Shown: in pieces, positions 4,738 through 52,490 of the stretch | How positions within the stretch are numbered: the first letter of the stretch is position 1 | Layout of the letters: the number at the start of each line of letters is the position of its first letter | NCBI RefSeq assembly: GCF_030684215.1 | Contig: NZ_JAUXOV010000071.1 | Coordinates: forward strand, 1 to 64,000 | Reading direction: 5' to 3' | Source: Pseudotabrizicola sp. | GTDB taxonomy: Bacteria > Pseudomonadota > Alphaproteobacteria > Rhodobacterales > Rhodobacteraceae | Length of the DNA stretch: 64,000 nucleotides | Notes under the pieces: generated by a model | What the model saw: only the letters and a program-made list of their open reading frames with translations | The model's database searches: none | What the model was told of the DNA's origin: nothing | Program-made: the position numbers and the translations under genes

Positions 4738-7700
4738 TCAGGCATCCCGGCGCCCGAGGACGATATTCAAGCGGTGTTTACCGTCTTGCAACGCAATTAT
4801 CAGTCCATTTTCCGCCACAGTCAGTTCTGTGCCGTTCAAGTCTGCAGATCGGATTCCGGCCCCACAGCCGTCAGGATTGTGGATTGACACGGCATAGTGC
4901 GCCGCGTCCAGAGTGATGTTCACGGTAAGCTCGGGCCAGAATTTCGGAAGGGACGGATTCAAGCAAAGGGTTCCGCCGTTGCGGGTAAGACCGACGATCC
5001 CCTCGATGCCGGCGCGATACATCCAGCCGGCCGACCCCGTATACCAGGTCCAGCCACCGCGACCGGTGTGGGGTGGCGTGGAATAAACATCGGCCGCAAC
5101 GACGTAGGGTTCAACCTTATAGCGGTCTGCATCGGGGCGGGTCAGAGCATGGTTGATCGGGTTCAGCATCGCGAACAGCTCGTGCGCGGCATCCCCGTCG
5201 CCAAGCTTTGCGTGCGCAAGGATCGCCCACATCGCGGCGTGGCTGTATTGGCCGCCGTTCTCGCGCAGGCCGGGTGGGTAGCCTTTGATGTAACCGGGGT
5301 CCAACGGAGTACGGTCGAAAGGCGGCGCAAAAAGCAGCGCAAGACCGGGATCGGGACGGATGAGGTGTGTCGTCATCGAGGCCATCGCGGTACGCGCACG
5401 GACTGGGTCGGCGGCCCCGGACAGGACAGCCCATGATTGTGCGATGCTGTCGATGCGGCATTCGTCTGAGCTTGCCGAACCGAGCAAGGTGCCATCGTCG
5501 AAGGTGCCGCGCCGGTACCACTCCCCATCCCAGCCGTCTTTCTCGATAGCGTCCAGAACCGATCTTGCGTGGGTGCGCCAGCGCTTGGCACGGCCCGGGT
5601 CGCGGGCATCGGCCAGCGGGGCCATCAGGTCGATTGTCGCGATCAAAAGCCAGCCAAGCCAGACACTCGTGCCCTTGCCGCCTTCGCCCACGCGGTTCAT
5701 CCCGTCGTTCCAGTCGCCGGTGCCGATCAGGGGCATTCCATTCTGGCCCGTCAGCGCGATGGCCTGGTCCAGCCCCCGGGCGCAGTGTTCAAATAGGCTT
5801 GCGGTGTCTTCGGACACCTGAGGTTGGAAGAAGTCATCATGCGCCCCTGGTGGTACCTGCGGGCCCTGCAGGAACGGCACTTCTTCGTTCAGGATCGACG
5901 TGTCACCCGATACAGCAATGTAGCGCGTGACGCCGTAGCCAAGCCACACGCGGTCGTCCGAGATGCGGGTACGTACGCCCTGACCGGAATGTGGCAACCA
6001 CCAGTGCTGCACGTCTCCCTCGGGGAATTGGCGGGCGGCAGCGCGCAAAAGGTGCGCGCGCGTCATCTCGGGACGCGCGAAAGTCAGCGCCATGCCATCC
6101 TGCAACTGGTCGCGAAAACCATAGGCTCCACTGGCCTGATAGAACCCAGCCCGCGCCCAGATACGGCAGGCAAGTGTCTGGTACATGAGCCAGCCGTTCA
6201 GCAGGATGTCCATCGCCCGGTCAGGGGAGCGGATCTGAACGCTACCGAGAAGCCCGCTCCAATGGTCTTTTACCGCAGACAGAAGGTCATCAGAATCGAC
6301 CAAGCGCAATCGTTGGATCAGGGCACTGGCGGTCGTGTCGCTGTCTGTCTGACCGATCAGGAAGGTAAGTGACACCGTTTCACCGGGGCGGAGGGTGACC
6401 CGGCGCTGCAAGGCGGCGCAGGGGTCGAGCGCCGGGCCGGTCTTGCCTGAAAGAGGTGCGTTGTGGATGCCAGCCGGAGCGGCATGCGAACCACCAGTCC
6501 CGATGAACTCGGCCCGGTCGGCGGTCAGGCTGGACACGCCTGCCCCGAAATCGGCAAAAGCGACGCGACCCGGAAAGGCGGTGCTGAATGTGTTCTGCGC
6601 CAGAATCGCCCCGGTCGCAGGATCAATGCGCGTGAGGATATAGGGCGCGCTTGCCCCCCGCGACGTGCCCAGCACCCATTCTGCGTAGGCCGTGACCGCA
6701 AGGGTGCGCGTCGTGGTGCCGTTGTTGCGCAGGTGAAGGCGGGTGATCTTGGCGGGCGCATCCAGCGGAACGAACTGGGTCATGTCGGCCGCGATGTCAT
6801 GCGCATTGTGCTGGAAGCGGGAATAGCCAAAGCCGTGGCGTGCGATGTAAGTGTCAGGTCCGCGAATCGGCAGGGCTGTTGGTGTCCAGACCTGACCGCT
6901 CTCCAGATCATGCAGATAGATCGCTTCGCCGGACGGGTCGGTGACAGGGTCGTTCGACCACGGAGTGATCTGATTCTCGCGGCTGTTTTCCGACCAGACG
7001 TGGCCATTCCCTTCTGCTGAGACCTGAAACCCGAAGCTTGGGTTGGCGACAACGTTGATCCAGGGGGCCGGAGTGGTGCGCCCGCCCTGAAGGATGGTCA
7101 CATATTCGCGCCCGTCCAGACCGAAGCCGCCGATGCCGTTGAAGAATTCAAGTTGCGGCAATTCGGGCGGTGGCGATGACGGACTTGGCGCAGTCAGGCT
7201 GGCAGCCATCGGCACCGGCACCGGCACCGGAAGGGGTGAAAGGCGCGACAATTGGCTGGCAAGATCACCCCGGCTTGCAACAAGGACCGCGCGCGCCACC
7301 GAAACAAGGTGCTCTCTTGCGCCGGGATTGAGAAGGTCGGCGCGCAACGCGTGGATCGTGCCGTTGACCGGGGCGTGGATGCCAATGGCCCGCGGGCGGG
7401 AGCGCGCGGCACGCACGGCGCTGTCGATGGCGATCTGCAGATCCTGCACATACGATGAGGTCCGGTCGTTGAGCACGACAAGATCCACTGCATGCTGGTG
7501 CATCTGCCAGTACTCATGGGCGCTGATTGCCTGATGTAGGACGGAAATGTCTGCGGAATCGTCAATCCGCAACAACACGATCGGCAGGTCCCCCGATATG
7601 CTCAACGCCCAGAGCGCGGACTGCGGCGCCGCGCCCGCAATAATCTGGGCAGGCGAAGCGCGCAGCCGGGCGTCGTTGCGGATGAGCATGCCGCCCAAAG

Positions 7701-10700
7701 TCTGGAAGTCGGCCGCGTCGGCGTGGGTGATGCCAAGGTGACGCAACTGGACCTGCGCTTGTGTCCAGGCGAGGGTGGCTGCGCGCGCGAAAGCCGAGGG
7801 GTCGCGGTGTCGATCCACCAGGTCGAGAAGCGCATCCGGCGTATCGGCAACCATTGTCCAGAAGGTCACGCGGGTGGTGCCGCCAGCCGGAATACTGATC
7901 CGGCGACGGATAGAGAAGATCGGGTCCAGAACTGTCCCGGTTGTCCCGGACAGGGGCTGGTCCATCATCGCCGCCGAGGCAATGTCGTGCCCGCGCCCGA
8001 TGAATTTCGCGCGGTCCGTCTCGATCTGGATCGGGGCGGTGTCTTCGCCCTCTACCACCGCGATATGCGCAGCCCAGACCTCAGGGTCAGAGGGTGAACG
8101 CCGGCGGCGGGTGGCGATGACCACACCCAGTTCGGGCAGGAAGTCCGTCACCACGAACATCTTGGAGAAAGCCGGATGTGCCTGATCAGCCGCTGGCGGA
8201 GCGAGCACCAGTTCTGCGTAGGATGTCACATCGATTTCCCGGGCGCGCCGCCCGCTGTTGGTCAGGGTGACGCGCCGGGCCTCGGCATCGTCTTCGGCTG
8301 AGACAACAACTTCGGTCAGGGTCGTCAGCTGCGGCATATGGTGGGTGAAGGCCGCGTGGTGTTCGCAAAATACGGCACGGTGACTGTCGGTCTTGGCCCG
8401 TGTTGGCTGGACGCCAGCCGACCAGACTTCGCCTGAAGCCGTGTCGCGCAGGAACAGGAAAGACCCATGCGCTGCCTGAGCCGCCTCGGGCCGCCAGCGG
8501 GTAATCGCCATGTCGCGCCAGCGGCTGAACCCTTCGCCGGTTGCGGTCAGCATCACGCCATAGTTGCCGTTGGACAGAAGATGAGCCGTTGGCGCATCCG
8601 TGGCCGGGCTTTCATAGGCCCGGACAGCCGGTGTGTCGTGATTTTCAACAGGGGCGACCAGCACCTCGGTCGCTCGCGGTGGCGCACTGGCGACATCACG
8701 GGGAACCCGCTCTTGCAGCAGTAGTTCAGCGCCCTGAATCATCGGTTCGGCATGGAACCTGTCCCGCAGGCGACCATTCTGAAGGATGTTGGCAATGGCG
8801 GTGATCGTCATGCCCTGATGATGCGCCATGAAGCTGCGGACGATGGACCGCGTTTCACCGGACTGCAGGCGCGAGGGTGTGAAGTCTACCGCCTCGTAAA
8901 AGCCGTAGCGCCCCTCGGCGCCAATGTCTGCAAGAACGGCATAGTTTTGCGCCGCCGCGACCGGGTCGATCATCGCAGCCAGCGCTGTTGCATAGGGCGC
9001 GATTACACGGTTCTCGCTGAGACCGCGTTTCAGACCCAGACCCGGCACCCCGAAGTTGGAGTATTGATAGGTCATCTCAAGGTCGCGGGCGTTGTAGGAA
9101 GATTCGGATATTCCCCAAGGGATGCTTAACCCTGCCGCGTAACTGCGCTGACGGGCGACGACCAGCCGTGTGGTCTGTTCCAGCACAGATCCTGCCGGAG
9201 CGCGCATCACAAGCGATGGCATCAGGTATTCGAACATGCTGCCCGACCAAGAGATCAGCGCAGCAGCCGATCCGATCGGCGTTGTCGGGCGGCCCAGGTG
9301 GAACCAGTGCCGGGTGGCCACATCGCCTTTGGCAATGGCAAAAAGGCTCGCCAGCCGCGCTTCAGAGGCAAGTAGGTCGTAACAGTTGGTATCCAGCCGG
9401 TTGGTCGCCACGGAAAAGCCGATGGAGAGCAGCTTTCGGTCCGGGTCGAGAAGGAAAGTGAAGTCCATCTCTAGTGCAAGGCTGCGGCAAAGCGACTCGA
9501 CATCCCGCAGAAGCTGGGTATCGCCGGACCCGGTCTGATCTGACAGGTGATCGGCAAGTGTGGATTGCATCGCGAGCGTCCAGAACTTCGCCTCGGAAGG
9601 CGTGTCGCCGCTCAGGCGCACGGCGTTGCCCATCTGCGCTGTCAGCGTTGCGAGGGGCGTCGCCGGATCTGCCGCCGCCGCAGCGATCGCCGTAAGCGTG
9701 CGGATGAGGTCCAATTGGTCGGCATCCCGCCCAAGCGAGCGGCGGACAAGAATTGCACAATCGCCCATCGCCTGACGTACGGCCCCGTCTTCGCGCACGG
9801 GCTGCGCGGCCCAGGCGCGACAGGACTGCGCCACCGCGATCAGATGCCCCGCAAGATTTCCACTATCAACCGAGGACACATAGGCCGGATCCAATACGCG
9901 CAGGTCTCGGGTGTCGTGCCAATTGTAGAGATGGCCGCGAAAGCGTGGCATGCGCTGCATGGTCTGAAGCGTGTCGAGCATCCGCTGCAAGGCCGTCTGT
10001 TGGCCGATCCAGCCCATATCATGCGCTGCGACTGTAGAGAGGAGATAAAGCCCGATGTTGGTGGGCGACGTCCGGGTTGCGATGGCGGGTCGCGGGGTTT
10101 CCTGAAAGTTGTCGGGAGGCAGAAAGTTTTCCTCCGGTGTGACGAAGGTCTCAAAATACCGCCAGGTTCGCCGGGCAATCAGCCGCAACTCTTGCGCCTG
10201 CACCTTGGACAGAGACGCTATGGGCAACGGCAGCCGCGGCAGGCTGATCACTCGGGCAAGGGCTGGCGCAGCGGCCCAGATCAGGCCGAACATTAGCGGC
10301 AGCGGCCAGACTTCCGGGTTCAGGACCCATGCCAAGACGCATGCGCCCACACCCAGCACCAGACCAGGCAGCATGGACAGATACTGTTGCATCAGGGTGG
10401 GACGCGCATGGCTGTTGGCCTTGGCTGCGGTCATCCATTCCAAAAGGTACCGGCGTGACACCAGAAGCCGCCATGCCGTCCGCAACACCGCGTCCATCAT
10501 TGTCGCAGCGGTGTTGGCAAGCAATGCCAAGCTGACTGCGATCTGGCCGACAGCGGTCAGGGCATCCGCCCGCAGTGCTGCGAAATGACTACTCAGGGTG
10601 ATGCCGCTGCGGGCTGGAAAGAAGTCGAAGGGCAATGACAAAAGACGCGGGAGCGCAAGCATCGACACGGTCAGCGCCGTCCACAGTGCGGCCAAGGGCA

Positions 10701-13215
10701 GCGGCAGCATCCAACCGGCCACAAGCGATAGCAGCGCCAGCGGTGCAAGCATCGACCGCCGCAGGTTATCGATCATTTTCCAGCGACTTATTGCCGGAAC
10801 GCCGCCCCGGTCGTGGCGATGGCGGCCGAAAATCCATGGCAGAAGTTGCCAATCGCCCCGTGCCCATCGATGCTGGCGGCGGATGTCGACATCGTAGCGC
10901 GCCGGATAATCCTCAACCACTTCGATATCCGAGACGAGTGCGGCCCGCGCAAAGGTTCCCTCGAACAAATCATGGCTCAGAAGCGTATTCTCGGGCACCC
11001 GACCGTCCAGCGCCGCGTCAAACGCGTCCACGTCATAGATGCCCTTGCCGGTGAACGTGCCCTCGCCGAACAGGTCCTGATAGACATCCGACGTCGCCGC
11101 TGCATATGGCTCAATCCCACCGGGGCTGGAGAAAAGCTGCTGATAGATTGATCCGTCCGGCCCGGTGGGCAAAGACGGGCTCACTCTGGGTTGCAATATG
11201 CCATAACCGCCTGTGACAGCGTGCTGTGTGGCGTCAAACCGAGCGCGGTTCATCGGATGCGCAATCTTGCCCACCAACTGTGCGACGGTCCCGCGCAATA
11301 GCCGGGTATCGGCGTCCAGTGTGATGACATAGCGGACATCGCCGGGCAGCGGACTGCTGACCACCGAGTAGCTGGTATCGGTCGCACCGCGCAGCAGGCG
11401 GTTCAACTCGGTCAGCTTTCCGCGCTTGCGTTCCCATCCCATCCAGACGCCCTCGGACGGATTCCACAGACGACGGCGGTGCAGGAAGAAGAAGCGGTCG
11501 CTGCCCTCGCTTGGGTAGCGCGCATTGAGGTGCGCAATTGCATCGGACGCGGCAGTGACAAGCGCGGTATCTTCAGAAGCCACCTCTGTGACAGAGTCCG
11601 GCGCATCCGAGAGCAAGGCATAATGCACGGCCCCACCGGCACTAGACAAATGATGAACCTCAAGCCGCTCAATCTGCTCCGCGATATCGTCGGTATTGCG
11701 CAGCAAGACCGGGACGGCGACCAGAGTGCGCAGATGCAGCGGAATGCCTGTCGACAGATCGAACCCCGGAAGGGGTCTGGGCGACACCGTACGGGTGATG
11801 AGTGTATTGACGATTGCCGTCGCCAAATCCACAGCAAGCCAGAACCCGACCATCGCCAGCGCCAGAACGCCGAGCGGGCCAACCCCCGCAGTCGCCATCT
11901 CCGCCAACGGTGGGATGAAGATCACCACAGCCACCAAAACGATGGCCCCCAGATAGCCGCCCAACCCCCATCTTCCAACCCGGCGAAACAGCGACAGTCG
12001 AGCGGGCGGACGGAACCTGATCGCGGTCTCAAGCTCTCGGCGACCCTCTCCGATCAGCCAGTATCCTGCATCCCGCCGATGCTCGTCTTCACCCTTCCCG
12101 GCAAGGGCAAGGGCAGTGTCGGCCACCTCGCCTTCAGTCAGCGGCGCATTATGTGCAAGAATTTCGATTTCGGTCCGATAGCGGTTGCGCGTGGCAAAAT
12201 CCATCGCGGCATAGGTGGGATTGTCCCGTAACCGTGCATCGACCAGACTCACGTCCTCGAAAAAATCGGCCCAGTCCATCTCTGAAGCAAGACGGATCGA
12301 CGTAACGATGTTGCGCATGGTCACGTTCGACGCGCCAAGCCGAGCCTGAGTGTTGGCAATCACCTCATCAACCGACGTACCCTGGCGGGTCAGACGATCT
12401 TCCAGCCAGCCCAAAAGGGGTGTCTGCAACGGATCAAGGCCCCGAAGCCGCTTGGCGATCTGGCCAGCGACAATTTCCGGCAGCGCTCTCGATTCATAAG
12501 GCGCTACGACCCTTTGCATGACGGATAGCGCGGTTTCTCCGTGCGTCTGCGACGCGCTCAACGCCGCATCGACCATCGCGTCCGCCTGAAGGCGCTTCGA
12601 GTGCCCCTCGACGATCTGTAGCGCAAGACGGCGCATATTCTCGATCAGGACAATACGGAGTGTAATGGCCACGGCCCAGAGTTCGCCGATCATCAGTGGC
12701 TGGACGTGCTGATACGCTTTGACATAGCGTGCCAGGATCGGCCCGGACATCAGGCTGTCGGTATGGGCGACATAGGCCCACGTCAGGCCAAACACCCTCG
12801 GGTAGCCCGCAAACGGCCCCTCGGCGAGCTTCGGTAGCTGACGATAATACCCCGGCGGAAGGTCGTCGTGGATCTGGCGAAGCTGCTGTTCAACCAAGTG
12901 GAAGTTGTCCAGAAGCCACTCAGCCGCCGGGGCAATCACCTGCCCGGACTGCACCGCTTGTGCACAGCTCCGGTAGGCCTGCAGAAGAATGTCGCCATTC
13001 TCCCTTACCCTGCGGCTAAGCGGCTGGACCCGCAGGGCCTTGCCCGTGGTTATCAGCTGGGCTGCCGCCAAGCTTTGCGCGTGATGCTCAAGACGCTCGG
13101 TACCGAAAAGGTCAGACCGGATCGGAGCGCTGTCATCCCAGACGTCGGGAACCGCCTTAAAGCGCACACCCATCGACGCCTGCATGAGGCGGAACTTCCC
13201 TTGCCAATCTGTCAC
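4738..13215 (-). CDS. ndvB: Cyclic beta-(1,2)-glucan synthase
   Basis: A 2825-aa inner-membrane enzyme, the usual size of the Cgs/NdvB/ChvB family (about 2830-2870), which makes periplasmic cyclic beta-1,2-glucans from UDP-glucose for osmotic adaptation and host interaction. In order: an N-terminal helical part (1-410), membrane segments (about 415-475), a GT84 domain with DADTRLL near 632 and RRQHRWARGDWQL near 782, more membrane segments (about 820-985), a glycoamylase-like middle domain (about 1030-1500; NIGLYLLSTVAAHDMGWI, GSMFEYLMPSL) and a long GH94 phosphorylase-like C-terminus with DWNDGMNRVGEGGKGTS near 2508. The start is a GTG whose GTGA overlaps the stop of the mini-ORF upstream. 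No frameshift seen; the gene looks intact although IS remnants lie on both sides of the locus. Confidence 0.95.
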   Translation of the reverse strand: MTDWQGKFRLMQASMGVRFKAVPDVWDDSAPIRSDLFGTERLEHHAQSLAAAQLITTGKALRVQPLSRRVRENGDILLQAYRSCAQAVQSGQVIAPAAEWLLDNFHLVEQQLRQIHDDLPPGYYRQLPKLAEGPFAGYPRVFGLTWAYVAHTDSLMSGPILARYVKAYQHVQPLMIGELWAVAITLRIVLIENMRRLALQIVEGHSKRLQADAMVDAALSASQTHGETALSVMQRVVAPYESRALPEIVAGQIAKRLRGLDPLQTPLLGWLEDRLTRQGTSVDEVIANTQARLGASNVTMRNIVTSIRLASEMDWADFFEDVSLVDARLRDNPTYAAMDFATRNRYRTEIEILAHNAPLTEGEVADTALALAGKGEDEHRRDAGYWLIGEGRRELETAIRFRPPARLSLFRRVGRWGLGGYLGAIVLVAVVIFIPPLAEMATAGVGPLGVLALAMVGFWLAVDLATAIVNTLITRTVSPRPLPGFDLSTGIPLHLRTLVAVPVLLRNTDDIAEQIERLEVHHLSSAGGAVHYALLSDAPDSVTEVASEDTALVTAASDAIAHLNARYPSEGSDRFFFLHRRRLWNPSEGVWMGWERKRGKLTELNRLLRGATDTSYSVVSSPLPGDVRYVITLDADTRLLRGTVAQLVGKIAHPMNRARFDATQHAVTGGYGILQPRVSPSLPTGPDGSIYQQLFSSPGGIEPYAAATSDVYQDLFGEGTFTGKGIYDVDAFDAALDGRVPENTLLSHDLFEGTFARAALVSDIEVVEDYPARYDVDIRRQHRWARGDWQLLPWIFGRHRHDRGGVPAISRWKMIDNLRRSMLAPLALLSLVAGWMLPLPLAALWTALTVSMLALPRLLSLPFDFFPARSGITLSSHFAALRADALTAVGQIAVSLALLANTAATMMDAVLRTAWRLLVSRRYLLEWMTAAKANSHARPTLMQQYLSMLPGLVLGVGACVLAWVLNPEVWPLPLMFGLIWAAAPALARVISLPRLPLPIASLSKVQAQELRLIARRTWRYFETFVTPEENFLPPDNFQETPRPAIATRTSPTNIGLYLLSTVAAHDMGWIGQQTALQRMLDTLQTMQRMPRFRGHLYNWHDTRDLRVLDPAYVSSVDSGNLAGHLIAVAQSCRAWAAQPVREDGAVRQAMGDCAILVRRSLGRDADQLDLIRTLTAIAAAAADPATPLATLTAQMGNAVRLSGDTPSEAKFWTLAMQSTLADHLSDQTGSGDTQLLRDVESLCRSLALEMDFTFLLDPDRKLLSIGFSVATNRLDTNCYDLLASEARLASLFAIAKGDVATRHWFHLGRPTTPIGSAAALISWSGSMFEYLMPSLVMRAPAGSVLEQTTRLVVARQRSYAAGLSIPWGISESSYNARDLEMTYQYSNFGVPGLGLKRGLSENRVIAPYATALAAMIDPVAAAQNYAVLADIGAEGRYGFYEAVDFTPSRLQSGETRSIVRSFMAHHQGMTITAIANILQNGRLRDRFHAEPMIQGAELLLQERVPRDVASAPPRATEVLVAPVENHDTPAVRAYESPATDAPTAHLLSNGNYGVMLTATGEGFSRWRDMAITRWRPEAAQAAHGSFLFLRDTASGEVWSAGVQPTRAKTDSHRAVFCEHHAAFTHHMPQLTTLTEVVVSAEDDAEARRVTLTNSGRRAREIDVTSYAELVLAPPAADQAHPAFSKMFVVTDFLPELGVVIATRRRRSPSDPEVWAAHIAVVEGEDTAPIQIETDRAKFIGRGHDIASAAMMDQPLSGTTGTVLDPIFSIRRRISIPAGGTTRVTFWTMVADTPDALLDLVDRHRDPSAFARAATLAWTQAQVQLRHLGITHADAADFQTLGGMLIRNDARLRASPAQIIAGAAPQSALWALSISGDLPIVLLRIDDSADISVLHQAISAHEYWQMHQHAVDLVVLNDRTSSYVQDLQIAIDSAVRAARSRPRAIGIHAPVNGTIHALRADLLNPGAREHLVSVARAVLVASRGDLASQLSRLSPLPVPVPVPMAASLTAPSPSSPPPELPQLEFFNGIGGFGLDGREYVTILQGGRTTPAPWINVVANPSFGFQVSAEGNGHVWSENSRENQITPWSNDPVTDPSGEAIYLHDLESGQVWTPTALPIRGPDTYIARHGFGYSRFQHNAHDIAADMTQFVPLDAPAKITRLHLRNNGTTTRTLAVTAYAEWVLGTSRGASAPYILTRIDPATGAILAQNTFSTAFPGRVAFADFGAGVSSLTADRAEFIGTGGSHAAPAGIHNAPLSGKTGPALDPCAALQRRVTLRPGETVSLTFLIGQTDSDTTASALIQRLRLVDSDDLLSAVKDHWSGLLGSVQIRSPDRAMDILLNGWLMYQTLACRIWARAGFYQASGAYGFRDQLQDGMALTFARPEMTRAHLLRAAARQFPEGDVQHWWLPHSGQGVRTRISDDRVWLGYGVTRYIAVSGDTSILNEEVPFLQGPQVPPGAHDDFFQPQVSEDTASLFEHCARGLDQAIALTGQNGMPLIGTGDWNDGMNRVGEGGKGTSVWLGWLLIATIDLMAPLADARDPGRAKRWRTHARSVLDAIEKDGWDGEWYRRGTFDDGTLLGSASSDECRIDSIAQSWAVLSGAADPVRARTAMASMTTHLIRPDPGLALLFAPPFDRTPLDPGYIKGYPPGLRENGGQYSHAAMWAILAHAKLGDGDAAHELFAMLNPINHALTRPDADRYKVEPYVVAADVYSTPPHTGRGGWTWYTGSAGWMYRAGIEGIVGLTRNGGTLCLNPSLPKFWPELTVNITLDAAHYAVSIHNPDGCGAGIRSADLNGTELTVAENGLIIALQDGKHRLNIVLGRRDA

Positions 13216-44584: not shown

Positions 44585-45634
44585 TTAGACAGTTGCGATA
44601 TGGCGGTCATATTCCGCCTTTGCCCGCCCCCAGACGCCCGCATCAAGTGCAGTCAGCGTCAGCAGGCTGGGCAAAAGTTGGGCTGCGTAATCCTCGCTTG
44701 ATTCCACGGGCAGCAAGGAGGGCAGGTTGTCGATGGCAGTCACATCCAGCGGTGGATTTTGCGCCACTCGCAGCGCAGGCGCGGCCCAGTCGGTCGCGCG
44801 GTCATAGACCTTGATCGGCGAGAAATCCGAGGTGGGATCGCAGGCGATGTCACCGATCACGGTCAGCGCGCGGGATTCGGCTTTGGCGCTTGCGGGCACA
44901 AAGACCGGGCAACCGGGGCGGGCGAGGATGCAGTTCAGGAAAATCTCATGCTGAAGCACCTCGGGGAATGGACCGCCGTGCGCGGTTTCGGCCATGTCCC
45001 ATTTGGTAACCTTGACGCCAAGGGCTTCGCACAGGTCACTTGCCCCGGTGCCAACCCGACCCAGCGCACCGATGACAATGGCGCGGGGGCGCAGCATCGT
45101 GTGCATTTCATCCGCCAGATCATCCAGCAGCGCCTGACGCCCCGGATATTTGGCGACAGGGCCGACCAGTTCGCCGCGCTGTTGGGCAGCCCATGTTTTC
45201 AGCGCCACAGCGGCCCCGGCATAACCCGCCCAATAGCCAAAGGCGGCGACACGGCGACCGTCTTCATTCACCAGATATTCCAGATCATACAGCGTGCCAC
45301 CGCCTGCCTTGAAGCGTTTCAAAAGCGCGCGCCCGGCGGGTTGGCCCTTGTAGGCATGACCAAACATGATGTGGCGGTGCGGCAGCGGAGTGCCGTCTTC
45401 GGGCAGTTCTTTCAGGCCAAAGATGATGGCGTCAGCGGGAGCCTGAGGCCATGAGTTTTTTTCGGCAATCTGGCATCCCGCCTGCACATAGCCATCAAGC
45501 GGAATCGCGCGAACGGATGATTTCTCGACCGTCACCCGCAGCCCGGCCTGCACCAATGCGGCGGCACCGCTTGGTGTAAGGCCCACACGTTCTTCATTCG
45601 GGCGCTGTTCGGCCCGGACCCAAAGATGTGTCAT
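44585..45634 (-). CDS. Saccharopine dehydrogenase (NAD+, L-lysine-forming type)
   Basis: A 349-aa LYS1-like enzyme of the alanine dehydrogenase/PNT N-terminal superfamily. It has WVRAEQRPNEERVGLTPSGA, LKELPEDGTPLPHRHIMFGH, YDLEYLVNEDGRRVAAFGYW, VIGALGRVGTGA and GDIACDPTSDFSPI. It converts saccharopine to lysine and 2-oxoglutarate or the reverse. The start at 45634 (MTHLWVRA) fits the family and its ATG overlaps the stop of the WGR gene (ATGA). Confidence 0.9.
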   Translation of the reverse strand: MTHLWVRAEQRPNEERVGLTPSGAAALVQAGLRVTVEKSSVRAIPLDGYVQAGCQIAEKNSWPQAPADAIIFGLKELPEDGTPLPHRHIMFGHAYKGQPAGRALLKRFKAGGGTLYDLEYLVNEDGRRVAAFGYWAGYAGAAVALKTWAAQQRGELVGPVAKYPGRQALLDDLADEMHTMLRPRAIVIGALGRVGTGASDLCEALGVKVTKWDMAETAHGGPFPEVLQHEIFLNCILARPGCPVFVPASAKAESRALTVIGDIACDPTSDFSPIKVYDRATDWAAPALRVAQNPPLDVTAIDNLPSLLPVESSEDYAAQLLPSLLTLTALDAGVWGRAKAEYDRHIATV

Positions 45635-45852
45635 TCGGTTGTTCCTTCGATAACATAGCCGCGCCTCATCGCCCGTTTGCGCCACCGCTCGGCGGCCATG
45701 CAGGCATCGCGCAGGTTTGAGAACCAGACCAGCAGATGTTGGCCGCCCCGTCCCTTTGGCCCCCATTCGCGCATGACGGAATACTCGCCAAACAGGTTAT
45801 ATGCAACCTCGACCCGGTAGAAGCGGGCGCGGCGTTGGGCGGTGCGGGTCAT
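45631..45852 (-). CDS. WGR-domain mini-protein
   Basis: A 73-aa protein that is essentially one WGR domain: RFYRVEVAYNLFGEYSVMREWGPKG (first 20 residues carry the fold entry), RREWGxxGRxGQ-like REWGPKGRGGQHLLVWFS, then a helix rich in Ala/Arg (DACMAAERWRKRAMRRGY). WGR domains occur in poly(ADP-ribose) polymerases and in small bacterial proteins and are thought to bind nucleic acid. It is the first gene of the minus-strand saccharopine unit and overlaps the next gene by four bases. Function unknown. Confidence 0.85.
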   Translation of the reverse strand: MTRTAQRRARFYRVEVAYNLFGEYSVMREWGPKGRGGQHLLVWFSNLRDACMAAERWRKRAMRRGYVIEGTTE

Positions 45853-45936
45853 GAGAAAGGTCAGCAAAAGGCAGCCTCCATCTGGTCTTTCGGGTTCAGA
45901 GTTATCAGATATGACAGCGGGAAAAAGGAGAAAGCG

Positions 45937-46872
45937 ATGCGCAACGGGATGCTTGCACTGGTGATTGCTGCCTTGGCCGGGGGGGCATGGTGGTTGTGGC
46001 AGGGGCGTTTGGCCAAGCCGCTGACAGCCGATGCGCTGGCCACGCGGCTGGCAGTGCCTTTGGCTGCGCCAGAGGGACCGCTGGCGGTCTATCACCTTGG
46101 GCATTCGCTGGTCGGGCGCGATATGCCCGCCCTTCTGGCACAGATGGCGGGGCATGATCACGCCAGCCAATTGGGGTGGGGCAGCAGCCTGAAAGACCAT
46201 TGGCACGACGAAGTGGCCGGGTTTGAGACCGAAAACGCCCATGCACGACATCGCCCGGCAGGGCAGGCGCTGGACAGTGGCGACTATCAGGTGGTGGTGC
46301 TGACAGAGATGGTCGAGATCCGCGATGCCATCCGCTATCATGACAGCGCGCAACATCTGGCGCTGTGGGCACAGCGTGCACGCAAAGCGCGGCCCGATGT
46401 GCGGCTGTATCTGTATGAGACTTGGCATCGTACCGATGACTCCGAGGGTTGGTTGGCGCGGATCGACGCTGACAGCGCGCGCTATTGGCAGGGCGATGTG
46501 CTGGCTGGCGCGATGGCGCAGGAGGGTGTGGGCGCGATCTATGTCATACCAGGAGGCCCTGTGATGGCAGCGGTGGTCCGCGCAATTGACGCCGGGCAGG
46601 TGCCGGGACTGACCACGCGCGACGATCTGTTTGCCAGCGATGAGGTAGGGGCTGTCGATTCGATCCACTTCAACGATGCTGGCGCTTATCTCATGGCGCT
46701 GACCCATTATGCGGTGATCTATCAGCGCAACCCCAAGGGATTGCCCCACAATCTGACCCGCGCCGATGGGGCCCCGATCACAGCACTGTCAGAAGACACC
46801 GCGCGGGCGCTGCAACGGATAGTCTGGGACACGGTTTTTCGCTATGGTCTGACAGGCATGTCAAACGGTTAA
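45937..46872 (+). CDS. Membrane-anchored SGNH-like hydrolase
   Basis: A 311-aa protein with one N-terminal membrane helix (MLALVIAALAGGAWWLW) and a domain that resembles SGNH/GDSL esterases. The nucleophile motif is YHLGHSLVGRDMPALL near residue 54-60 (GHSL for GDSL), the Asp-x-x-His block is AVDSIHFNDAGAYLMAL near 241-245, and a LYLYETWH strand lies between. The same layout occurs at the start of the next gene, so the two are paralogous. AAAAAGGAGAAAG precedes ATG 45937. Location inferred as periplasmic face of the inner membrane; possible role in glycan deacylation. Confidence 0.78.
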   Translation: MRNGMLALVIAALAGGAWWLWQGRLAKPLTADALATRLAVPLAAPEGPLAVYHLGHSLVGRDMPALLAQMAGHDHASQLGWGSSLKDHWHDEVAGFETENAHARHRPAGQALDSGDYQVVVLTEMVEIRDAIRYHDSAQHLALWAQRARKARPDVRLYLYETWHRTDDSEGWLARIDADSARYWQGDVLAGAMAQEGVGAIYVIPGGPVMAAVVRAIDAGQVPGLTTRDDLFASDEVGAVDSIHFNDAGAYLMALTHYAVIYQRNPKGLPHNLTRADGAPITALSEDTARALQRIVWDTVFRYGLTGMSNG

Positions 46873-46881
46873 GGTGATCAA

Positions 46882-49452
46882 GTGGGCTTTTTTGCGCTGT
46901 TGACGGATGTTCTGTTCGTGGGTCACAGTCTTGTCGGCCCCGATCTGCCCCCATTGGTCGAGGGTGGATTGCGGCTGATGGAACAGCCCGCGACGGTTTC
47001 AGCGCAGATCATCAACGGCGCGCCTTTGCGCTTCAATCTGCAAAACTCGGCCACCGCCGAAGGGGTGGATGCCCGTGCCGAACTGGCCAAGGGCAAGACC
47101 AAGGTGCTGATCCTGACCGAAGCGATACCGCTGGCCGAACATCTGCGCTGGAGCGACACGCCGGGGGCTATTGCCGCTTTTGCCGGGTTGGCGCGGGCTG
47201 GCAACCCGGATGTACGGGTGTTCGTCTACGAGACATGGCACAGCCGCAATTCCAGCACACCCGTTGAGGGCGACACCAATGCGACCCTGCCATGGCGCGA
47301 ACGACTGACGGCGGACCTGCCGCAGTGGGAAGGGGCCTTGCGCGCATCAGGGGCGGATGTGGCGCTGATCCCTGCCGGGCAAGCGATGGCACTGCTGTCG
47401 GATGCGGTAGCAGCTGGCACGGTGCCGGGTGTGGCGACGATGGATACCTTCTTTTCCGACGACATCCATCTTTCGGATAAGGGCAAGTATTTCGTGGCAC
47501 TGGTGCATATCGCCGCGATCACCGGAGCCTCGCCCGAAGGGTTGCCCGCGCAGATGACCCGCACATGGCGAAGCCGCGATGCGGTGATTGGCGACGATCT
47601 GGCCGCGGTGTTGCAGCGTCTGGCATGGCAGGCCGTGAGCGGCTACGCGCCCGTCGCTGTCTCCGACACAACGGCAGAGGCGGCGCCACAGCCGGTGGCG
47701 AAACCGGAACCAGAGCCGATGGCTGAGGCCACGACCGTTCCCGCTGTGGTAGAGCCGGTGGCGGCGACTGCTGTGCCAGAACCAGCGCCCCCCGCAATGA
47801 TGACCGCAACGGATACAGCAGCATTGACGCCGATCACCAACCCAAACCTTGCTCTGGGATTGCATGGCATCACCGATTGGTCAGTGCAGCAGCCATTCCT
47901 TGATGTGATGAAAACCGCCCGCGACTGGACCGGGCATCTGCCCGGCCAATATGGCGGCTGGGACCATGACCGGATGGCGGCGGCGGGAGTGTTGGGGCCG
48001 AACGGCTGGCCCACAGCGATTCCGCCCGAAATCACCGGTCTGTCCACGCTTGTCATGGTGGATCTGCCAGCCGATGCGGCTGGCGTTGCAGGGCACTATC
48101 TGGTCACCTATGCGGGCAAGGGCGATCTGCGCATAGATGGGCGCGCACAGAATGTGGTGTATGCGGACGGCACCGCGCAGTTTGATTTCACCCCCGGAGA
48201 GGGCGGGGTGTTTCTGCATCTGGATGCCATCAACGCGGCGGACCCGATCCGCGACATCGTCATCGTGCGCGAAGATCGCGCGGCGCTTTTGGCTGACGGG
48301 GCTGTGTTCAACCCCGATTGGCTGGCACGGCTGCGCGGGGCAAAAACCATCCGTCTGATGGACTGGATGCGCACCAATGACAGCAAACTCGCGCAGTTGG
48401 AGGATCGACCAAAGCCGCAAGATTACACTTGGACGCGGATCGGTGCTCCGATTGAGGTGATGGTGGCGCTGGCCAATGAATTGGACGCAAACCCTTGGTT
48501 TACGATGCCGCATCTGTCGTCAGATGAACTGGTCAGGTTCTACGCCACCGCCGCACGCGATGGGCTTGAACCGGGCTTGGTGGCCCATGTCGAGTTTTCT
48601 AACGAGGTCTGGAACTGGCAGTTTGATCAGGCGGCCTGGGCCGAAGAACAGGGACGCGCACGCTGGGGGGGCGACTCGAAATGGGTGCAGTATTACGCCC
48701 ACCGCGCAGGCGAGGTGGCAACAATCTGGACCGATGTCTTCGGGGCCGAGTCAGACAAACGGTTGGTGAGGATTCTGGCCACTCAGACCGGATGGCTGGG
48801 GCTGGAGGATCAGATTCTGACCGCAGCGGATGTGGTGGCCGAAACCGGAACGGCACCGGCCACGCTATTTGATGCTTATGCTATCACCGGTTATTTCAGC
48901 GCCCTTTTGGGCAGCGACGAAAAGGCTGCAATGGTGCGCGGCTGGATCGCCGAGTCAGAGGCGGCGGCACGCACAGTCGCACAGGCGCAGGGCTTGCAGG
49001 GGGTTGCGGCAGAGGCATTTGTCGCATCTCACCGCTTTGATGCGGCGGTGGCCTTTGCCTTACCGGAACTGGAAAGCGGTGCGATCAGTGGCAATGCCGA
49101 GGATAGCGTGACCGATTTCCTGACCCGCATTCTGCCGCATCAAGCACAGGCAGCCGCAGCCCATGGCCTGCGGCTGATGATGTATGAAGGCGGCAGTCAT
49201 GTGGTGGGCAACGGTGCGCAGGTTGATGATGATGCGATGACCGCTTTTTTCGTGCATCTGAACTACACTCCCGAAATGGCACAGCTTTATGACCGCGTTC
49301 TGAAAGGCTGGGCGGCGGTGACTCCAGAGCCGTTCAACGCCTTTGTCGATTTGGCCAGCCCCGGCAAATGGGGCAGTTGGGGGGCCATGCGGCACTTGGG
49401 CGATGACAACCCGCGCTGGCAGGTGCTTGCCAAAGGGTGCCTTGATTGCTGA
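46882..49452 (+). CDS. SGNH-like / putative clan GH-A glycoside hydrolase fusion
   Basis: An 856-aa two-domain protein. Residues 1-255 repeat the SGNH-like domain of the upstream gene (VLFVGHSLVGPDLPPLVEGG, FVYETWHSRN, DDIHLSDKGKYFVALVH). A Pro/Ala/Glu/Val linker (about 260-312) follows. Residues 315-856 contain GLHGITDWSVQQPFLDVMK, a beta-rich insert, then a TIM-barrel-like part with LMDWMRTND, the Asn-Glu pair of clan GH-A enzymes in VEFSNEVWNWQF (N574, E575) and a candidate nucleophile in MMYEGGSH (E769). I recall this C-terminal type in Roseobacter proteins without a characterised member. The start is GTG 46882, ten bases after the previous stop; no signal peptide is visible. Its stop overlaps the next gene. 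Confidence 0.72.
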   Translation: MGFFALLTDVLFVGHSLVGPDLPPLVEGGLRLMEQPATVSAQIINGAPLRFNLQNSATAEGVDARAELAKGKTKVLILTEAIPLAEHLRWSDTPGAIAAFAGLARAGNPDVRVFVYETWHSRNSSTPVEGDTNATLPWRERLTADLPQWEGALRASGADVALIPAGQAMALLSDAVAAGTVPGVATMDTFFSDDIHLSDKGKYFVALVHIAAITGASPEGLPAQMTRTWRSRDAVIGDDLAAVLQRLAWQAVSGYAPVAVSDTTAEAAPQPVAKPEPEPMAEATTVPAVVEPVAATAVPEPAPPAMMTATDTAALTPITNPNLALGLHGITDWSVQQPFLDVMKTARDWTGHLPGQYGGWDHDRMAAAGVLGPNGWPTAIPPEITGLSTLVMVDLPADAAGVAGHYLVTYAGKGDLRIDGRAQNVVYADGTAQFDFTPGEGGVFLHLDAINAADPIRDIVIVREDRAALLADGAVFNPDWLARLRGAKTIRLMDWMRTNDSKLAQLEDRPKPQDYTWTRIGAPIEVMVALANELDANPWFTMPHLSSDELVRFYATAARDGLEPGLVAHVEFSNEVWNWQFDQAAWAEEQGRARWGGDSKWVQYYAHRAGEVATIWTDVFGAESDKRLVRILATQTGWLGLEDQILTAADVVAETGTAPATLFDAYAITGYFSALLGSDEKAAMVRGWIAESEAAARTVAQAQGLQGVAAEAFVASHRFDAAVAFALPELESGAISGNAEDSVTDFLTRILPHQAQAAAAHGLRLMMYEGGSHVVGNGAQVDDDAMTAFFVHLNYTPEMAQLYDRVLKGWAAVTPEPFNAFVDLASPGKWGSWGAMRHLGDDNPRWQVLAKGCLDC

Positions 49453-50264
49453 GCGTGATCATCCCGGCCTCGAACGAGGCTGGCTATATTGGCGATTGTC
49501 TGACGCATCTGTGCGCCTCGGACGCGGCGGCGGTGCAGGTGGTTGTGGTGGCAAATGGCTGCCGCGATGATACCGCCGATGTGGCGCGGGCGGTGCTGGC
49601 CACACATCTGCCGCAAGACTGGTCCAGCCGGGTGCTGGAACTGGCGCAGGGCTCAAAACCCGGCGCGCTGAATGCGGGCGATGCGGCGGCGCTGCATCCG
49701 CTGCGGGTCTATCTGGATGCAGATGTAATTGTATCATCGGGGCTGCTGGGGGCGCTTGCCAACGCTTTGGGAACCGATGCGCCACTCTATGCCAGTGGCA
49801 CGCCGGTTATTTCGCGAGCAAAAAGCGCGGTGACCCGTGCCTATGCCCGGTTCTGGCAAAAGCTGCCGTTTAACCAGACCGCGGCCCCCGGCTACGGGCT
49901 GTTTGCGGTGAATGCGGCAGGGCGGGCGCGCTGGGGCGTGTTTCCGGCGATCATCTCGGACGATACTTTTGTGCGGTTGCAGTTTTTGCCGGCTGAGAGG
50001 GTTCAGGTTTCAGACACCTATATCTGGCCCATGATCGAAGGCTTTTCGGCATTGGTGCGTGTGCGCCGGCGTCAGGATGCCGGGGTGCGCGAACTGGAAG
50101 CGCAAAACCCCGGTCTGCTGACACGGGAAGGCAAGCCCAAGCTGACCAAGGCCGCGCTGATTCGGCTGGCGTTGGCAGACCCTGTGGGCTTTACCTGTTA
50201 TGCCGCCGTGTCGCTGGCGGTGCGGACTAAGCGGGGCAGCGCGGGGTTTACGCGGGGACGGTAG
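49446..50264 (+). CDS. Family 2 glycosyltransferase
   Basis: A 272-aa soluble GT2 enzyme. MLSVIIPASNEAGYIGDCL opens the GT-A fold, VVVANGCRDDTADVARAV follows, the metal-binding DxD is in RVYLDADVIVSSGLL, and APGYGLFAVNAAGRARWGVF with IISDDTFVRLQF mark the acceptor side. The start codon TTG at 49446 overlaps the stop of the glycoside-hydrolase-like gene by seven bases, so the three genes from 45937 form one transcript. No membrane helix is evident. It would transfer a sugar to a glycan or lipid acceptor; donor unknown. Confidence 0.86.
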   Translation: MLSVIIPASNEAGYIGDCLTHLCASDAAAVQVVVVANGCRDDTADVARAVLATHLPQDWSSRVLELAQGSKPGALNAGDAAALHPLRVYLDADVIVSSGLLGALANALGTDAPLYASGTPVISRAKSAVTRAYARFWQKLPFNQTAAPGYGLFAVNAAGRARWGVFPAIISDDTFVRLQFLPAERVQVSDTYIWPMIEGFSALVRVRRRQDAGVRELEAQNPGLLTREGKPKLTKAALIRLALADPVGFTCYAAVSLAVRTKRGSAGFTRGR

Positions 50265-52402: not shown

Positions 52403-52425
52403 GCCCGGCCAAAAAAAGGCCGGGC
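52403..52425. terminator. Hairpin between convergent MFS and regulator genes
   Basis: gcccggcc and ggccgggc form a perfect stem around seven A residues. A third partial copy (ggcccggcc) follows at 52430-52438. No T-run on either strand directly after the stem. Confidence 0.55.
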
Positions 52426-52490
52426 ACAAGGCCCGGCCAGGTCCAACAGGGAGGTGCCGTGCCATAACCCCGACACGACAAGGGGAACTC

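Follow-up and report, generated by a model that had tools for sequence, protein, structure and literature searches.

The three genes at positions 45,937 to 50,264 are best read as belonging to a polysaccharide locus, usually one with coupled PKS and NRPS genes; they form a part of it that is conserved, co-inherited and, in this genome, detached. They lie in the window, the whole stretch of 64,000 nucleotides of Pseudotabrizicola sp. DNA that was analysed, which lies on contig C51 of a genome of 4.44 Mb and 81 contigs. Marine roseobacters have the parts united in one locus, and in Pseudotabrizicola and its kin the cassette is detached and sits at a housekeeping site. We put the probability at about 0.55 that the cassette is the module for maturation and for one glycosyl transfer in a polysaccharide pathway of Wzx type, to which a type I PKS and NRPS are usually coupled. 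This reading is built on the genes present, their adjacency and linkage, their co-occurrence across genomes, the predicted folds and the conserved catalytic residues.

The genes, domains and sites of the cassette are:

45937..46872 (+): SGNH1, 311 aa, putatively exported or membrane-anchored, DUF4886-like SGNH protein; ATG start
46105..46107 (+): codon of SGNH1 Ser57 (GHSL), kept in 33/33 aligned sequences
46657..46668 (+): SGNH1 Asp241-x-Ile-His244; Asp, Ile and His each kept in 33/33 aligned sequences
46882..49452 (+): SGNH2-GH, 856 aa, two domains; GTG start; query protein for the 80 loci
46882..47661 (+): SGNH2 domain, about residues 1-260, SGNH1 paralogue (BLASTP, Foldseek)
46927..46929 (+): codon of SGNH2 Ser16, kept in 54/54 aligned sequences
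47458..47469 (+): SGNH2 Asp193-x-x-His196; Asp in 53/54 (one Glu), His in 54/54
47662..47835 (+): Pro/Ala/Glu-rich linker of SGNH2-GH; pLDDT below 50 for residues 261-307
47836..49449 (+): GH domain, predicted clan GH-A-like barrel with a beta-sandwich part (structure model, Foldseek)
48604..48606 (+): codon of Glu575 (Ser-Asn-Glu; presumed acid/base), 54/54 and 36/36
49186..49188 (+): codon of Glu769 (Tyr-Glu-Gly-Gly; presumed nucleophile), 54/54 and 36/36
49446..50264 (+): GT2 glycosyltransferase, 272 aa; TTG start within the end of SGNH2-GH; PF00535

The open reading frames were as the preliminary description had them, with SGNH1, SGNH2-GH and GT2 adjacent, a 9-bp gap, a 7-bp overlap, and GTG and TTG starts. 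An AGGAG-type ribosome site was seen by eye directly 5' of SGNH1. When the three proteins were scanned against Pfam and NCBIfam, no family rose above its cut-off except for GT2, which passed the glycosyltransferase family 2 profile PF00535 at 58.6 bits (cut-off 23.3) and is indeed the glycosyltransferase claimed to overlap the end of SGNH2-GH. Promoter and terminator scans gave counts near those of shuffled sequence (2 vs 1.3 and 5 vs 3.9). Elsewhere in the window, a short protein encoded 5' of SGNH1 (45631-45877, minus strand) resembles by eye a WGR-domain protein, and a 2825-aa open reading frame (4738-13215, minus strand) resembles, again by eye, an NdvB-type cyclic beta-glucan synthase. 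Positions 52412-52485 (minus strand) match the Rfam family SorX (RF02784), a small RNA of singlet-oxygen resistance, at 81.6 bits (gathering cut-off 46.6), adjoining a response-regulator-like gene.

Both neighbours had been said to carry the same SGNH-like domain. BLASTP aligned the two at 32% identity over 276 columns with E 2e-34, which rules out chance similarity, and a comparison of SGNH2-GH with its own whole genome matched only itself and SGNH1 (E 4e-29). SGNH1 had also been described as membrane-anchored; hydropathy confirmed the hydrophobic N-terminal stretch, and the anchor itself is putative. An Arg-Arg motif with hydrophobic residues is found in 37 of the 68 SGNH1 N-terminal stretches examined, the window's not being among them. 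In the model of SGNH2-GH (pLDDT 88.3) the SGNH2 domain has a predicted fold whose best Foldseek match is the DUF4886 structure 4i8i (E 7e-8), followed by SGNH/GDSL enzymes and acetyltransferases such as PatB. The likeness to DUF4886 (PF16227) extends to SGNH1, as 10 of 33 SGNH1 homologues match that family at E up to 0.1 (best 1.5e-4), but the window's SGNH1 scores 11.8 bits, under the curated cut-off of 26.7, and SGNH2-GH has no match. DUF4886 has no known function according to the accessible part of PMC9487903.

Catalytic residues were counted in 33 SGNH1 sequences aligned from 71 loci and 54 SGNH2-GH sequences from 80. The block I Ser is kept throughout (Ser57 in 33/33, Ser16 in 54/54), and in the model strand 10-14 precedes Ser16. 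The block V Asp-x-x-His is kept in both proteins, with Asp241 and His244 in 33/33, Asp193 in 53/54 and His196 in 54/54. In the predicted SGNH fold the conserved Ser, Asp and His occupy the positions of blocks I and V, which may allow a Ser-His catalytic geometry. By eye, the consensus of the aligned sequences shows no block III Asn, the corresponding residues being Thr-Glu-Ala or Thr-Glu-Met. This Asn is an oxyanion-hole feature of the SGNH superfamily in the accessible part of PMC9487903; another oxyanion donor may take its place here.

The preliminary description had SGNH2 fused to a glycoside-hydrolase-like domain, and this domain does have a predicted clan GH-A-like structure, although it has no Pfam family. 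The model of the GH domain, made with 36 sequences (pLDDT 92.8, pTM 0.92), matched 7pr9, which we take to be GH79 heparanase, at E 7.5e-5 and 6d25 at E 2.4e-4 in Foldseek, with only three matches below 0.001. The matches are clan GH-A structures (GH79, GH51, GH1 and GH10), with TM-scores of just 0.30-0.36 by query length. Clan GH-A enzymes carry one Glu after strand 4, preceded by Asn, and a second Glu on strand 7. The model is a barrel with Asn574-Glu575 after strand 4 and Glu769 on strand 7; all three residues are invariant (54/54), and both Glu are also invariant in the second alignment (36/36). The likeness to clan GH-A glycosidases such as 7pr9 and 6d25 (GH51) therefore lies in the predicted barrel fold and the placement of the two Glu, while the GH domain differs in having neither a PDB relative by sequence profile nor a Pfam family. 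A Pfam scan of the 36 members matched no glycosidase family, and the PDB sequence searches returned two weak matches in one and none by the GH-domain profile. The model suggests a putative, unclassified family of clan GH-A in which the presumed-catalytic Glu are invariant. Two relatives combine this GH domain with RTX repeats, and a protein from a Paracoccus plasmid has it together with RTX repeats and GH16 (L130, L094 and L135). A C-terminal Cys-x-x-Cys (49437-49449 in the window) was present in 31 of the 54 aligned SGNH2-GH homologues, all on the window's side of the family; it is absent on the roseobacter side.

A scan of species genomes with SGNH2-GH gave 255 relatives, and the best 80 of these 255 were kept as loci. 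Among these best 80, all three genes lie within 100 bp of one another in 67 Rhodobacterales loci, a conserved neighbourhood as opposed to the scattered homologues that would have refuted the preliminary description. An SGNH1 homologue was found in 71 of the 80 and a GT2 homologue in 77, and because the loci were found with the window's SGNH2-GH these adjacency counts are conditional on that gene. The spacing between SGNH1 and SGNH2-GH is -4 bp in 39/71 loci and +9 in 6/71, and that between SGNH2-GH and GT2 is -7 in 33/77 and +5 in 22/77. Stop read-through fusing SGNH1 to SGNH2-GH was considered, as the two share a frame in the window, but was rejected: the 4-bp overlap in 39/71 loci puts them in different frames there. 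Nine of the 80 loci lack SGNH1, and in each of the eight such genomes searched (L046 was left out) the sole match is the SGNH2 domain. The nearest relatives share 80-84% identity and come from Pseudotabrizicola species and from a strain catalogued under Pseudorhodobacter sp. Three loci were set aside before trimming, L027 and L046 because they are broken or contain N and L008 because no motif was found in it; this left 77 SGNH2-GH homologues, 53 of which were aligned together with the window's.

ORF clustering and a per-locus gene table showed two main settings of the cassette across the 80 loci. In 38 of them the fetched flanks place it between PKS/NRPS genes upstream and a set of glycosyltransferase (GT), Wzx, Wzz and sugar-transferase genes downstream. 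The larger locus comprises a type I PKS, NRPS, a PPTase, further glycosyltransferases, Wzx, Wzz, a kinase-like ATPase and an undecaprenyl-phosphate sugar transferase. Within these 38 loci, one of which (L068) ends 2.4 kb downstream, the PPTase was found in 30, GT4 in 38, Wzx in 33, Wzz in 37, the kinase-like ATPase in 36 and the sugar transferase in 37. Their hosts are Leisingera, Phaeobacter, Sulfitobacter, Tritonibacter and kin. A record titled Nocardioides marinus DP1N28-1 (L040) carries a full roseobacter-type locus and falls inside Leisingera on the GH tree; it is probably misnamed.

The second setting is that of the window's relatives, where the flanks are housekeeping genes. By-eye assignment, used for these among other gene names, gave a hepII-like gene in 27 of the 80 loci, purH in 25, lysDH in 25, sacDH in 24 and xth in 19. 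Loci L019 and L022 have housekeeping genes on one flank and Wzz, ATPase and sugar transferase on the other. On a GH tree made by a quick method, the PKS label required 3 changes against a shuffled mean of 26.2, and the detached label 7 against 23.2. Genome G126 carries in one run SGNH1, an unfused GH, GT2, sugar transferase, ATPase, Wzz, Wzx, GT4s, both NRPS, GT2b and PKS; its formyl-transferase NRPS is present in two copies (its contigs C6 and C47). Parasedimentitalea plasmid pW43C carries, in this order, PKS, GT2, NRPS, a hypothetical gene in the place of SGNH1, SGNH2-GH, GT2 and GT.

The remaining parts are present in the window's own genome, where the set is spread over three contigs (C51, C56 and C73). 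A Wzx query matched C73 at 60% identity and a Wzz query matched C56 at 43%. C56 holds a GT4, a sugar transferase, Wzz, the ATPase, a Wzy-like protein, a second GT4, a 2157-aa PKS, GT2b, a 1502-aa NRPS and a PPTase, and C73 holds Wzx and a 1312-aa NRPS. The Pfam and NCBIfam scans gave the PKS the domains KS, AT, KR, DH, ACP and TE. The first NRPS, on C56, combines a formyl transferase and a carrier with an adenylation domain that a MupA/Atu3671-type monooxygenase interrupts; the same scans found no condensation domain in it. The second NRPS, on C73, has condensation, adenylation, carrier and TE domains. The C56 sugar transferase matched the WbaP and EPS transferase models at 253 and 231 bits, under their cut-offs, and the Wzy-like protein (510 aa) matched PF04932 at 24.4 bits, under the cut-off of 31.7. 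Outer-membrane export genes are located elsewhere, and this counts, like the Wzy-like match below its cut-off and the spread over three contigs, against the favoured reading. A stand-alone three-gene pathway was rejected in view of the recurrence of the larger locus, whose set the window's genome also holds. Of the undescribed polysaccharide pathway that the preliminary description had drawn from the cassette, the link to polysaccharide genes stands, while the three genes are one module of a larger locus rather than the pathway itself.

Co-inheritance was surveyed in 394 genomes of the family, with GH counted at E 1e-3 and NRPS at E 1e-150. SGNH2-GH matched in 150 and the NRPS in 142; 136 genomes had both, 14 GH only, 6 NRPS only and 238 neither, giving an odds ratio of 385 (Fisher p 1.7e-80, in a test that ignores kinship). 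For the 122 genomes with both places listed, the distance between the two was at most 30 kb in 89 and 41 to 585 kb on a shared contig in 6, and in 27 they were on different contigs, by a count in which places were typed by hand and second places of some genomes were left out. A class-wide draw of 289 genomes had the GH domain in 6, at least three of them in the window's family.

Five of the 14 GH-only genomes were inspected. In G097 a PKS, GT2b, Wzx and GT2 adjoin the GH. In G104 Wzx, Wzz, the ATPase, the sugar transferase, GTs and GT2 lie near it, PKS and NRPS are absent within 20 kb, and the NRPS is unmatched genome-wide at E 1e-150. G104 is a hint that the GH goes with the polysaccharide set also where such an NRPS is missing, and it speaks against an obligatory PKS-NRPS coupling. 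G077 has only GTs, G193 has a PPTase and a sugar-kinase-like gene, and G215 has nothing of the set except a weak AMP-binding match. Among other loci, only SGNH1 and GT2 stood alongside the GH within 20 kb in L095 and L097, and none of the set neighbours was found in 20 kb at L098 (the second GH copy of genome G161) or L133. These isolated copies likewise count against the favoured reading. Two genomes of other families, G602 and G647, had within 20 kb nothing of the set beyond an AMP-binding match; by eye, nucleotide-sugar genes are present in G647.

In the polysaccharide pathway that we favour, the undecaprenyl-phosphate sugar transferase would load the first sugar, and the cassette GT2 with the other transferases would build the repeat unit. 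The PKS-NRPS would supply an acyl or acyl-aminoacyl group for the glycan, Wzx would flip it, and Wzz with the kinase-like ATPase would set the chain length. The SGNH domains may remove or transfer ester groups via Ser-His-Asp, and the GH-A domain may trim or cut the backbone via its two Glu. From these genes we infer the substrates, the reactions, the order of the steps and the place where SGNH2-GH acts. A bolder version, which we hold tentatively, is that the widespread orphan PKS-NRPS of Rhodobacterales decorates a surface polysaccharide with a formylated polyketide-aminoacyl group instead of making a diffusible metabolite; a new GH-A family and the SGNH pair would mature this glycoconjugate, and in the Pseudotabrizicola lineage the pathway would be operated from three genome places. 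Its standing is slightly lowered by G104, which has the polysaccharide set and the GH but no such NRPS match.

Could the product instead be a small molecule? The PKS, NRPS and PPTase occur together in 30 of the 38 roseobacter-type loci, and thioesterase domains end both the PKS and the second NRPS, as would suit a glycosylated polyketide-peptide small molecule or a glycolipid, with a Wzx-like exporter and SGNH and GH domains trimming acyl or sugar groups. Mycobacterial glycopeptidolipids are a precedent. We consider this unlikely, as Wzz, the kinase-like ATPase and the undecaprenyl-phosphate sugar transferase, which are typical of polymers, are present in 36-37 of the 38 loci, and G104 joins the polymer set to the GH without such an NRPS. 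It seems more doubtful still that the detached cassette of the window's lineage lost its service to the PKS-NRPS and was co-opted for another glycan, in its own turnover or in scavenging. The cassette does sit amid housekeeping genes in many related loci, and the 8/8 genomes whose cassette lacks SGNH1 have it nowhere else. Against this, the window's genome and detached relatives such as G121, G178, G247, G380 and G382 retain both GH and NRPS, and the catalytic residues remain invariant.

By inspection and hydropathy, SGNH2-GH has no recognisable signal peptide, which makes periplasmic action a poor fit. All 77 trimmed homologues have their N-terminus at the opening strand of the SGNH fold, and in 67 of them the first 9 residues contain neither Lys nor Arg. 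These features would suit a cytoplasmic enzyme that clears stalled lipid-linked or free oligosaccharide intermediates, leaving SGNH1 alone to edit the exported polymer. This is possible but on balance doubtful. Hydropathy fails to set SGNH2-GH apart (1.84 in the window, vs 2.01 for SGNH1), and among 11 GH proteins outside the clade 8 have by eye a signal peptide or anchor and 3 have none (L098 and both of L100). Some GH relatives also carry RTX repeats, a feature of secreted proteins. From these signal peptides, anchors and repeats, the sequences suggest that the ancestral GH enzyme was probably secreted. Export of SGNH2-GH together with SGNH1 does not hold as a general rule, since the Arg-Arg motif is found in 37 of the 68 SGNH1 stretches and not in the window's, and SGNH2-GH is kept without SGNH1 in 8/8 searched genomes whose cassette lacks SGNH1.

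The PKS-NRPS half of the locus has probably been met before, judging by description rather than gene by gene. In the accessible text, Phaeobacter inhibens is credited with one PKS and three NRPS genes, of which Inhi_1972/_1974 are the probable counterpart (PMC4062626), four genomes with a conserved NRPS-like/type I PKS cluster (PMC10608839), and Tritonibacter with clusters like none known (PMC11225332); that of PMC4359443 holds nothing specific on a roseobacter PKS/NRPS cluster. As far as the accessible parts of these papers go, SGNH and GH genes and a polysaccharide product go unmentioned. The titles and abstract openings found, in a search with most subscription journals outside its scope, likewise contain no tie of PKS/NRPS to polysaccharide genes. 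As far as the literature searched shows, then, the polysaccharide link is undescribed, while the NRPS/PKS half is already listed as an orphan cluster.

Among known polysaccharide systems, the rkp and wcb capsule clusters are alike in having a type I PKS inside them (RkpA/WcbR; PMC3908369, accessible part). They differ in that NRPS, PPTase, Wzx and Wzz accompany the PKS here. Export in the rkp and wcb systems is by an ABC transporter, and the set found here matches the Wzx/Wzy type in its sugar transferase, Wzx, Wzz and kinase, divided between C56 and C73 in the window's genome and held in one locus in most of the 38. Glycosidase and carbohydrate esterase activities also stand side by side in exopolysaccharide synthesis operons, as with PgaB, PelA and PslG. 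Those editing hydrolases differ from SGNH2-GH in fold and family, and are exported. Roseobacter genome papers class what is probably the same NRPS/PKS cluster as a secondary-metabolite cluster without an assigned product. Both genomic position and phyletic distribution link this cluster to polysaccharide genes and to the cassette (136/394 genomes with both GH and NRPS), which suggests that the orphan cluster serves a decorated surface polysaccharide, and makes a cell-surface product directly testable.
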